DNA of 64,000 bases, from positions 186,001 to 250,000 of the forward strand of contig CANMKS010000001.1 in assembly GCA_947498645.1 (NCBI GenBank), given 5' to 3'. This DNA comes from an uncultured Paracoccaceae bacterium. Its GTDB lineage: Bacteria; Pseudomonadota; Alphaproteobacteria; Rhodobacterales; Rhodobacteraceae. Of this stretch, positions 40,427-60,238 are shown piece after piece. A program made the translations under genes and the position numbers. Each line of letters begins with the position of its first letter. The first letter of the stretch is position 1. Under the pieces are notes generated by a model. It had not been told where the DNA came from, did no database searches, and saw only the letters and a program-made list of their open reading frames with translations.

Positions 40427-43400
40427 TCAGGCGTCCTCGACCTCGATCACGCCACCCAACGACCGCAGCGCTCCTTTGATCTGCGGATTGACCGGGAAAT
40501 CATCGCCCAGATCCAGTTCAACCTCGCCCGGCAAATCATCCCCCATCAGGCAGAAGTAGACTGGGCCACGCCCACCGCGCACACCGTCACGCGCGGCGTT
40601 CGACAGAATGGATGCGACCGACCCTATCGCCTCCGGTCCATCAATAAACACGCGCAGACCGGCACCACCAGCATCCGCCACGACGGCGTCAATCGGGGAT
40701 ACGGACCGGCCCAACAGTTTGAGCTGATCCGCCTCCAACGTAGCCTCGCATTGCAGGACAACCTGGCTGCCGGTTTCAAGAAATTCACGCGCGGCCTCGA
40801 GCGTGTCCGAAAACATCGTGACTTCATATTGCCCCGTGGGATCAGAGAGTTGCACAAAGGCAAAGCGATTGCCGCGCGCCGATTTGCGTTCCTGTCGCCC
40901 TGACACAGTGCCAGCCATCTTGACGATGGCAGCGCCCTTCTCGGCCCGTGCTGTGACCTCATCCAAGGTCATCACCTGCTTGCGTTTCAGCGGCCCCATA
41001 TAGTCGTCCAACGGATGACCAGACAGATAGAAACCAATCGCACGAAACTCCTCGGCCAGCCGCTCTGCGGGTAACCAATCATCGCCGCCAATCAAACGCG
41101 GCTCTGGCAAATCCTCGCCCGCGTCGCCAAACAGTGACACCTGATTTGATGATTTCTGGTCATGGATCGCAGCGGAATACGCGGTCAGCGCATCAAGGCT
41201 GAGGATTACAGACCTGCGGTTCGGGTCGAGCACGTCAAAGGCCCCCGCCCGTGCCAGCATCTCCAACGGGCGCTTGCCGATACGTTTCAGATCCACACGG
41301 CGGGCAAAGTCGAAAAGGTTCACAAATTCATGGTCTTCGCGCCCCTCGACAATCAATTTCATCGCCTCGACACCGACGTTTTTCAGCGCACCCAACCCAT
41401 AGACGAGCTTTTGATCCTTCACATCAAATGTCGCCTGTGACCGGTTCACGCAAGGCGGGATGTATTCAATCCCCAACCCCTTTTTCACCTCTTGAAAATA
41501 GACGCCCAGCTTGTCCGTCAGATGGATATCGCAGTTCATGACACCGGCCATGAATTCTACCGGGTGGTTCGCTTTGAGCCATGCGGTTTGATAGCTGACG
41601 ACGGCATAGGCAGCGGCGTGAGATTTATTGAACCCATAGTTGGCGAATTTTTCCAACAGGTCGAAAACCTCGCGGGCTTTCTTGGGTTCAACGCCATTGG
41701 CCTTGGCGCCAGCCTCGAACTTGGGGCGTTCCTTCGCCATCTCTTCGGCGATCTTTTTACCCATCGCACGCCGCAATAGATCGGCCCCGCCAAGGCTGTA
41801 GCCCGCCATGACCTGCGCAATCTCCATCACCTGTTCCTGATAGACGATGATCCCTTGGGTTTCCTTGAGGATATGATCAATCGAAGGGTGGATGGACTCC
41901 AGCTCCTTCTGTCCGTTCTTCACCTCGCAATAGGTCGGGATATTCTCCATCGGGCCGGGACGGTACAGCGCAACCAGCGCCACGATATCCTCGATGCAGG
42001 TCGGCTTCATCCGCTTGAGAGCATCCATCATACCGCTGGATTCCACCTGGAACACAGCGGTGGTTTTGGCGCTGGAATACAGCGCATAGGATTTTTCATC
42101 ATCCAAGGGGATCGCCCCGATGTCGTACTCAAACCCCTCTAACGCATCATAAAGCTGTGTACCGTCAGCGGCCACATTCAAAGGCCGCTCCGCCTTGCGG
42201 ATCAGCTTCACCGCATTCTCGATCACGGTCAGCGTTTTCAAACCCAGAAAGTCGAACTTGACCAGCCCCGCCTGTTCCACCCATTTCATGTTGAACTGGG
42301 TTGCGGGCATGTCGGACCGCGGGTCCTGATAAAGTGGTACCAATTCGTCCAGCGGACGGTCACCAATCACCACACCCGCAGCGTGGGTGGATGCGTTCCG
42401 CAGCAATCCTTCCACCTGTTGCGCATAGGTCAGCAGACGGTCCACGACCTCTTCGTTCTTGGCCTCTTCACGCAGACGGGGTTCATCCGCCAAAGCCTTT
42501 TCGATCGACACGGGTTTGACCCCTTCGACAGGGATCATTTTCGACAGGCGGTCCACCTGCCCGTATGGCATCTGCAAAACCCGGCCCACATCACGGACGG
42601 CGGCCTTGGACAAAAGCGCGCCAAAGGTGATGATTTGCCCCACCCTGTCACGCCCGTATTTGTCCTGCACATAGCGGATCACTTCCTCGCGCCGGTCCAT
42701 GCAAAAGTCGATGTCAAAGTCCGGCATCGACACACGTTCGGGGTTCAGGAAGCGTTCGAACAGCAACGAATAACGCAGTGGATCAAGATCCGTGATCAAC
42801 AGGGCGTAAGCCACCAAAGACCCCGCGCCAGACCCCCGGCCCGGCCCAACCGGAATACCATTGTCCTTGGACCATTTGATGAAATCGGCCACGATCAAGA
42901 AGTAGCCGGGAAAGCCCATGCCCTCGATGATGCCTAGCTCAAATTCCAGCCGCTTTTCATATTCTTCAACCGGGGCCGCATGGGGGATGACAGCCAAGCG
43001 GTTCTTCAACCCCTGTTCGGCCTGTCGGCGTAATTCAGCGACCTCATCATCTGCAAATTTTGGCAGGATCGGGGCACGTTTATAGGCCTTGAACGCGCAG
43101 CGCTTGGCGATCTCGACGGTGTTTTCAACAGCCTCTGGCAGATCTGCGAACAGCGTGACCATTTCCTGCGGAGATTTCAGATAATGCTGTGGTGTCAACC
43201 GGCGGCGGGGTTCTTGTTGATCAACATAAGCGCCCTCTGCAATGCAGATCAGTGCATCATGTGCTTCGTACAATTCTGTCTTGGGGAAATAGACGTCATT
43301 GGTCGCAACCAGCGGCAAACCCTTGCTGTAGGCCATCTCGATATGACCGCGCTCTGACAGGCGTTCGGCCTGCGGCAAACCATCACCGGGATGGCGCTGC

Positions 43401-57992: not shown

Positions 57993-58199
57993 ATGGCTAC
58001 TGGCACCGTGAAATGGTTCAACGCAACTAAAGGCTTCGGCTTTATCGCTCCTGATGGCGGCGCGAAGGACGTATTCGTCCACATCTCCGCTGTTGAGCGT
58101 TCTGGCCTGACAGGTCTGCAGGACGACCAAAAGGTAACATTCGACATTGAAGCTGGCCGTGACGGCCGCGAATCTGCGGTGAACCTGGCACTGGCATAA
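57993..58199 (+). CDS. Cold-shock protein (CspA family)
   Basis: [36 protein letters not shown]. Confidence 0.97.
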
Positions 58200-58243: not shown

Positions 58244-58336
58244 ACTTTCCAGATTGTTAACGATCCGGACGCCAACTCTTCCGACAGCTTGAATTTGTTG
58301 CCAAATGTGGCATAATATTTGAGCGACGTTAATCTA

Positions 58337-58372
58337 TCGACCACTGTCTCCCTACCCGGCCCAGTCTCTCGA
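58337..58372 (+). promoter_or_regulatory. Candidate conserved leader stem-loop of cold-shock gene 2
   Basis: TCGACCACTGTCTCCCTACCCGGCCCAGTCTCTCGA. Confidence 0.55.
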
Positions 58373-58435
58373 TCACGTTTGACTGCGCCAGGCCGCTGCA
58401 CTCCCGCGAGCGGAATATATAAGGAAGACAAGGAC

Positions 58436-58645
58436 ATGGCTTCAGGCACTGTCAAATGGTTCAACACCACCAAAGGGTATGGCTTTATCGCACCGGATGG
58501 TGGCTCAAAGGATGTTTTCGTCCATATCTCAGCAGTCGAGCGTTCAGGCCTTACCGGCCTCAAGGACGACCAAAAGGTCAACTTCGACATTGAAGCTGGC
58601 CGTGATGGACGCGAAAGCGCGGTCAATCTGACGCTGGCCGACTAA
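58436..58645 (+). CDS. Cold-shock protein (CspA family)
   Basis: [38 protein letters not shown]; near-identical paralog of the upstream gene. Confidence 0.97.
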
Positions 58646-58722: not shown

Positions 58723-58926
58723 TTAGTCCGCTAGGACAAATGTAACCTTCAGAACAACCCGGTATTCGTCAACTTCGCCGTCTTTCACGGTGACCTTCTG
58801 ATCTGCCACCCAGGCACCGCTGATCCCCTTGAGCGTTTTTGAAGCCCGCTTGATCCCGTTTTCGACTGCATCATCGAAAGATTTGGACGAGGATGAGATG
58901 ATTTCTGTGACTTTTGCGACTGACAT
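58723..58926 (-). CDS. Dodecin family flavin-binding protein
   Basis: SVAKVTEIISSSSKSFDDAVENGIKRASKTLKGISGAWVADQKVTVKDGEVDEYRVVLKVTF. Confidence 0.95.
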   Translation of the reverse strand: MSVAKVTEIISSSSKSFDDAVENGIKRASKTLKGISGAWVADQKVTVKDGEVDEYRVVLKVTFVLAD

Positions 58927-58970
58927 GTCGGCTCCCTTCATTGTTATTGGTTACACATCCGAGCCTAGTG

Positions 58971-59552
58971 CTAGGCCGCAGCCCAGTCTACATCATCTGC
59001 TTTCTCGACATGCAGCGCGCCATCAGAGTAGGGTTTCATGAGTCTTTTTGCCGTCTCTTCATTTCCAGTAAGCCATTGATCCACATCACTTTGATCAAGG
59101 ATCACCCCCATGCGATGATGAATGTCGCGGACATCCGCCGAAGGCGGGCATGTTACCGTCGCGACCTGATGCACCTGCACGCCAGCGGGCCCGTTCCAGA
59201 CATCATAGATCGCCGCAAAGCACAGCAATCCACCATCCTTGCGGGTGATCCGCCATGGCTGTTTGCGTCGTTTCTCACCGGTCCATTCGTACCAACCGCT
59301 TGCAGGTACAACTGCCCGTTTCACGTCCACAAAGGCGGATTTGTCAAAGACGGTTTCGGAACGCGCATTCACAATGGTTTCCATCACAGGCCGCCCGCGT
59401 GCGTTGACACGCCCCACCGGGATCAGCCCCCATCGCATGTTTCTTGCCCCTTCGACGGTGAGCGTGATCACATCCTGTCCCGGCGCGATATTCCGCCTTG
59501 GGGGATCAGCCATCCCACCCACATCGTCGGTCAGAAAGAACCGCCCCGGCAT
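58971..59552 (-). CDS. SOS response-associated peptidase (SRAP/YedK/HMCES family), variant with Pro at position 2
   Basis: VNARSET, VPASGWYEWTGEK, IHHRMGVIL family motifs; N-terminus MPGRF rather than MCGRF. Confidence 0.9.
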   Translation of the reverse strand: MPGRFFLTDDVGGMADPPRRNIAPGQDVITLTVEGARNMRWGLIPVGRVNARGRPVMETIVNARSETVFDKSAFVDVKRAVVPASGWYEWTGEKRRKQPWRITRKDGGLLCFAAIYDVWNGPAGVQVHQVATVTCPPSADVRDIHHRMGVILDQSDVDQWLTGNEETAKRLMKPYSDGALHVEKADDVDWAAA

Positions 59553-59554
59553 TG

Positions 59555-60238
59555 CTAGTCCACCGCCTGCACAAGGTTCAGAACCGTTGGTCCTATGGCC
59601 GCGACGATGACGGCAACGCCCTCCTTATTGGGGTGGATGCCGTCGGCTTGCAGGAACTCTGTCATACCTTCCTGCATCCCTGCGGCTGCGCGCAGGCCTG
59701 ACGCAAAGTCAGCATAAAGCGAGATATCATATTTGGTGGCCAGATCAGGATACATCCCTTCAAATTCTTTTTTGTAATCAAGCCCATAGTTGGCCCCCAC
59801 CGAGAGCCCGACCAAGAGCATCTCAACCCCTGCCGCTTCGCCTGCGGCCAGAATACCATCAAGGTTGGCGCGGCTTACCGCAGGGTCCAGTCCACGCAGA
59901 TAGTCATTTCCGCCCAAGGTCACGATCATCGCGTCAACGTCCGGCGTCAGCGTCCAGTTCACACGACTCAGCCCGCCCGCCGTAGTATCGCCAGACACAC
60001 CTGCATTGATCACTTCAACATCGGCACCCTGTGCCTGCAACCAGGCCTCAAGCTGCGGAACAAAACCGTCGCCTTGCGCCAGTCCATACCCGGCTGTCAG
60101 GCTGTCACCCAACGCGGCCACTGTCACTGTTTCCGCCTGCACAGACCCTGCCGTGATCAAAACCGCTGCGATCAGCTTGCTGCTGTGCAAAATGGCCCCA
60201 TATGCAAAAGAACGCCAAAAACCAAAGGCCGCCCCCAT
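59555..60238 (-). CDS. SGNH/GDSL arylesterase (TesA-like)
   Basis: VTVAALGDSLTAGYGLAQGDGF, VTLGGNDYLRGLDP, DGIHPNKEGVAVI; start overlaps the divergent ABC gene. Confidence 0.93.
   Translation of the reverse strand: MGAAFGFWRSFAYGAILHSSKLIAAVLITAGSVQAETVTVAALGDSLTAGYGLAQGDGFVPQLEAWLQAQGADVEVINAGVSGDTTAGGLSRVNWTLTPDVDAMIVTLGGNDYLRGLDPAVSRANLDGILAAGEAAGVEMLLVGLSVGANYGLDYKKEFEGMYPDLATKYDISLYADFASGLRAAAGMQEGMTEFLQADGIHPNKEGVAVIVAAIGPTVLNLVQAVD

Follow-up and report, generated by a model that had tools for sequence, protein, structure and literature searches.

A Rhodobacteraceae/Roseobacteraceae clade of SRAP-fold proteins with proline in place of the catalytic Cys2

The second residue of SRAP proteins is a cysteine that has been termed absolutely conserved or invariant (PMC3765255; PMC9436759). 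What, then, is a protein of this family that begins with Met-Pro, and what could it do to DNA? The question is raised by a minus-strand gene in the window studied here, the whole 64,000-nucleotide stretch of contig CANMKS010000001.1 (positions 186,001 to 250,000) from an uncultured Paracoccaceae bacterium. The proline proves to be the fixed character of a clade under purifying selection, and a comparison with YedK suggests that it would change the chemistry of the SRAP active site. Coordinates are collected in Table 1.

The Met-Pro start and the SRAP fold

The preliminary description of this DNA had read an SRAP/YedK-family gene starting with MPGRF, without an in-frame MCGRF upstream and with the Asn, Glu and His residues of the SRAP active site in place. 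Rereading of the coordinates and the open reading frame (ORF) bore this out. The translation of the minus-strand ORF opens MPGRFFLTDDVGG, with MPGRF as its N-terminus. The only Pfam match of the protein is PF02586 (SRAP; 146 bits, E 1.1e-42), and the top matches in a sequence search against solved structures were BT_1218 (2f20), HMCES and YedK, all of them SRAP proteins. The AlphaFold2 model (predicted local distance difference test, pLDDT, 90; predicted template modelling score, pTM, 0.88) was used in a Foldseek search, in which the significant PDB matches were SRAP structures only, 8D2M among them. Both the profile and the predicted fold thus place the window protein in the SRAP superfamily.

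A mis-called start that hides an upstream MCGRF was ruled out, since no ATG, GTG or TTG codon occurs in frame upstream of MPGRF within the window. Any other in-frame start upstream is likewise missing in 80 of 100 distinct relatives, and in eight a stop codon lies directly 5′ of the start codon. The active-site residues N62, R64, E89 and H145 align with N75, R77, E105 and H160 of YedK.

Pro2 as the character of a clade

When bacteria and archaea were scanned with one genome for each species, 354 relatives came up, and 80 loci were retained, all from Rhodobacteraceae or Roseobacteraceae or placed only as Alphaproteobacteria. The genera are those of marine bacteria and include Yoonia, Loktanella, Ruegeria, Sulfitobacter, Roseobacter, Phaeobacter, Marivita and Silicimonas. 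In a comparison of 100 distinct clade proteins, with mutual identity down to 52%, position 2 is proline and position 3 glycine in every member, and Arg4 is present in 99. The preliminary description had asked whether Pro2 defines a conserved clade, and had named Cys2 in close relatives and loss of the other catalytic residues as grounds for giving up the idea. No clade member carries Cys2, and N62, R64, E89 and H145 are invariant (100/100 each). Orthologs found by a within-genus search share 69-88% identity, and all those with a readable N-terminus begin with Met-Pro-Gly. The start codons differ (ATG, GTG and TTG), and the encoded Met-Pro-Gly is constant. All four proline codons are used at position 2 (CCG 60, CCC 21, CCA 6 and CCT 6 in the 93 members in which they were counted). 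The median ratio of nonsynonymous to synonymous substitution rates (dN/dS) among Yoonia and Loktanella orthologs is about 0.10. Purifying selection acts on the Pro2 SRAP gene. The constancy of Pro2 through four codons, together with this ratio, rules out chance, an isolated mutation or a sequencing error.

In the tree, a branch of length 1.57 (support 100/99) separates all 33 Pro2 rows from the rest, which makes the group monophyletic; one divergent Cys2 row leaves the long-branch placement of its neighbours unsure. The clade also stands apart by score. Profile searches through samples of the family, order, class and phylum gave intact members more than about 200 bits (more than 300 in later searches), and everything else reached at most about 145 bits. 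Clade members were confined to the family of the source genome, where about 45 of the 298 sampled genomes (one from nearly every genus) carried one. A phage or plasmid origin was rejected: the searched viral contigs, phages and plasmids contained no close clade member, and their best matches share only about 31-38% identity.

Outside the clade, Cys2 is present in every recovered SRAP protein with a readable start. These number roughly 165 and come from viral contigs, from the same family and from other members of the Alphaproteobacteria and Pseudomonadota; position 2 of one prophage copy (L301), which ends at a contig edge, is unreadable. The clade keeps the Asn, Glu and His residues of the YedK/HMCES crosslinker class and lacks its Cys2. 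Judged by its sequence, the Pro2 protein is an SRAP variant outside that class. No paper describing a Pro2 SRAP was found in the open-access literature. The sequence finding itself is solid and, as far as that literature shows, undescribed.

One nonsense-bearing and one fragmentary copy might suggest that the gene is degenerating and functionless. This is scarcely credible, as it is contradicted by purifying selection, by motifs invariant over a clade that reaches 52% pairwise identity and by the conserved operon position. The nonsense-bearing copy belongs to Yoonia sp. F2084L (L009/L069); its in-frame TAG falls after the N-terminus and ahead of the GMIPVGR motif, and the copy is perhaps a recent pseudogene. 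The other (L145; G327 C20) is a degenerate Pro2-type SRAP fragment that likewise carries an in-frame TAG; its genome has other SRAP matches.

Predicted chemistry of the N-terminal proline

Methionine is usually cleaved off when proline follows it. By this rule an aminopeptidase would take off Met1 of the Pro2 protein and expose an N-terminal proline. Glu89 and His145 would open the sugar, and the secondary amine of Pro2 would attack C1′ of the aldehyde at an abasic site, or at a 3′-phospho-α,β-unsaturated aldehyde (3′-PUA) or 5′-deoxyribose phosphate (5′-dRP) end, to give an iminium. Without a thiol, this adduct would be unable to close to a thiazolidine. It would be resolved either by beta-elimination, the likely main outcome, in which case the protein would act as an abasic-site (AP) lyase, or by hydrolysis back, which would make it a reversible shield. 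Either outcome would be the reverse of what Cys2 SRAPs do, which is to lock on stably.

The scheme is modelled on YedK, in which Glu105 and His160 bring about opening of the sugar, the alpha-amine of residue 2 makes the Schiff base, and it is the thiol that completes the thiazolidine (PMC9436759). In the engineered C2A variant of YedK, the N-terminal amine makes a Schiff base that can be trapped with borohydride; this variant gives no stable crosslink and acts as an AP lyase (PMC9436759; PDB 8D2M). Glu105 is needed for this activity; the fitted rate constant of AP-DNA cleavage is 0.05 for C2A and 0.002 for C2A E105Q (PMC9436759). Because the thiol-free C2A variant behaves in this way, a natural Pro2 predicts an iminium-forming, non-locking SRAP, and this prediction of the chemistry is well founded. 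The idea of reversible or lyase-type chemistry in the preliminary description is partly supported: all that it predicted at the level of sequence was borne out. The two differ in that the Pro2 protein is naturally selected and offers a secondary amine, whereas C2A was engineered and offers the primary amine of alanine. A stable thiazolidine crosslink through Pro2 itself is chemically impossible, and AP-lyase or reversible-shield chemistry is expected for this reason. We propose, by analogy with C2A and at somewhat better than even confidence, that the clade is a paralogous SRAP enzyme of Rhodobacteraceae and Roseobacteraceae which uses N-terminal proline iminium chemistry as an AP lyase or a reversible shield.

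A stable crosslink might still be made if another thiol acted on the proline iminium. The candidate is Cys135, which is present in 100/100 clade members and directly follows T134 (T149 in YedK). Cys2 SRAPs such as L150 also carry a cysteine at that position, so that C135 is not compensatory, and a distant thiol is unable to form the five-membered thiazolidine. This explanation is very improbable.

In Fpg, the Schiff-base nucleophile is known to be the N-terminal proline (Zharkov 1997, as cited in PMC9436759). The Met-Pro-Gly start of the clade is firm, and after the expected removal of methionine its proline would, as in Fpg/MutM-Nei proteins, be the presumed nucleophile on an abasic sugar. 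The folds are unrelated: the window protein has the predicted SRAP fold, matches only PF02586 and contains no glycosylase domain. Its working can be likened to that of Fpg only by analogy.

The preliminary description had also raised the question of a Cys2 paralog in the same genome, and one was found outside the window. This second SRAP is distant from the Pro2 protein, keeps Cys2 and has an apparently intact set of Asn, Glu and His; an integrase-like gene adjoins it, so it may be mobile. The source genome also encodes one Fpg-family protein. A second SRAP match was present in 39 of 45 Pro2-bearing genomes, in agreement with a subsample check, and this fits a division of labour. A tentative idea, which we hold at less than even confidence, is that AP lyases with N-terminal proline have arisen twice in evolution, the second time on the SRAP fold: a suicide crosslinker would have been duplicated, and replacement of the thiol would have yielded an abasic-site enzyme that turns over or acts reversibly and works alongside the Cys2 protein of the same cell. 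So large a clade, kept by selection and devoid of Cys2, offers a natural experiment on the question why abasic sites are locked by SRAP rather than cut. Should the Pro2 protein prove to be a lyase or to bind reversibly, it would have evolved convergently with Fpg and would provide a non-suicidal SRAP, ready-made, for studies of DNA-protein crosslink chemistry, and the automatic label 'SOS response-associated peptidase' would cover two chemically different proteins in marine Rhodobacteraceae.

Remodelled residues and gene neighbourhood

The clade shares with YedK and HMCES the fold, the active-site residues G3, R4, N, R, E and H, and residue 2 as the presumed nucleophile, and differs from them in more than position 2. 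The Trp67 that Cys2 SRAPs invariably carry gives way to Gly inside an inserted invariant G-R-x-N-A-R-G-R-P loop; most positions of this Arg-rich stretch (VGRxNARGRP) are kept in 99-100 of the 100 proteins. Two further positions at which Cys2 SRAPs show little or no variation are swapped, P164 to G (HRMP to HRMG) and A152 to P. The C-terminus is short, with D-x-D-W-type residues in place of the V-N motif. In the genus of the window, the N-terminal strand is followed by a gap of about ten residues, on top of these clade-wide changes. The preliminary description had noted neither the altered first helix, tryptophan loop and C-terminal motif nor the second genomic SRAP with Cys2.

Some observations weigh against an iminium enzyme of abasic sites. 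With the Arg-rich loop in place of Trp67, binding of abasic sites in single-stranded DNA (ssDNA) may be lost or altered. The retained Glu and His could serve a noncovalent role. A scan of the window found no SOS genes and no alphaproteobacterial SOS box near the Pro2 SRAP gene, the context of which is tesA. Loss of the thiol, of Trp67, of HRMP and of the C-terminal VN motif amounts to strong remodelling, as might be seen in a pseudo-enzyme or noncovalent sensor that binds abasic or other DNA and keeps Pro2 for packing or for preventing crosslinks; such a protein would have no obvious need of the invariant catalytic residues, and we regard this as unlikely. Since the loop is remodelled, the substrate may also differ from the ssDNA abasic site of YedK. 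A proline Schiff-base enzyme could act on another carbonyl chosen by the loop (duplex or RNA abasic sites, 3′-PUA ends, crosslinks or a small aldehyde), and the non-SOS gene context and the Rid-family neighbours of some lineages would agree with this. The retention of R4, R64 and T134, which align with conserved SRAP residues, speaks against it, and we consider it quite unlikely.

Table 1. Features of the Pro2 SRAP locus and the second SRAP of the source genome
Feature	Position	Strand	Basis or remark
Pro2-type SRAP-fold protein, 193 aa	58971..59552	-	ORF; PF02586; AlphaFold2; Foldseek
ATG CCG, Met1-Pro2 replacing Met1-Cys2	59547..59552 (ATG 59550-59552, CCG 59547-59549)	-	direct reading
Loop G47-R48-V49-N50-A51-R52-G53-R54-P55, replaces YedK Trp67 region	59388..59414	-	group-specific conservation
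Asn62 codon (YedK Asn75)	59367..59369	-	alignment
Glu89 codon (YedK Glu105)	59286..59288	-	alignment
His145 codon (YedK His160)	59118..59120	-	alignment
tesA-like GDSL esterase gene, directly upstream	59555..60226 (start codon at 60226 provisional)	-	PF13472 1.7e-22
Dodecin gene, adjoining the Pro2 SRAP gene on its downstream side	58723-58941	-	
Tandem pair of cold-shock-protein-like genes, convergent with the dodecin and SRAP genes	57993-58199, 58319-58645	+	
Second SRAP of the source genome	L002 1477-2448 (G000 C1:14929-15543; outside the window)		start GTG-Cys-Asn-Leu-Tyr

An SOS-linked neighbourhood is common, and not strictly defining, for the YedK/HMCES class; the clade has a tesA/ABC setting instead. 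The window contains a single GTTCN7GTTC match; it lies at 42743, is chance-level and far from the Pro2 SRAP gene, and SOS-box regulation was rejected on this ground. Conservation of neighbours across the loci was assessed with named query genes. In 71 of the 80 loci a same-strand tesA lies directly upstream of the Pro2 SRAP gene, as a rule no more than about 30 nt away, and the tesA-like gene of the window is probably co-transcribed with it. An ABC ATPase and an FtsX-like permease gene lie beyond tesA; the conservation of the ABC and cold-shock (csp) genes across relatives is rough context only. At ten loci, representing eight distinct proteins in the tree, a Rid-family gene (PF01042, enamine/imine deaminase-like) takes the place of tesA directly upstream on the same strand (L044, L047, L048, L050/L102, L055, L060, L062, L108 and L141). 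The Rid-linked members are scattered over the tree (7 changes), and this neighbour can be taken as a weak hint of imine chemistry. On the downstream side, a dodecin gene occupies the same place in about 20 Yoonia/Loktanella-type loci.
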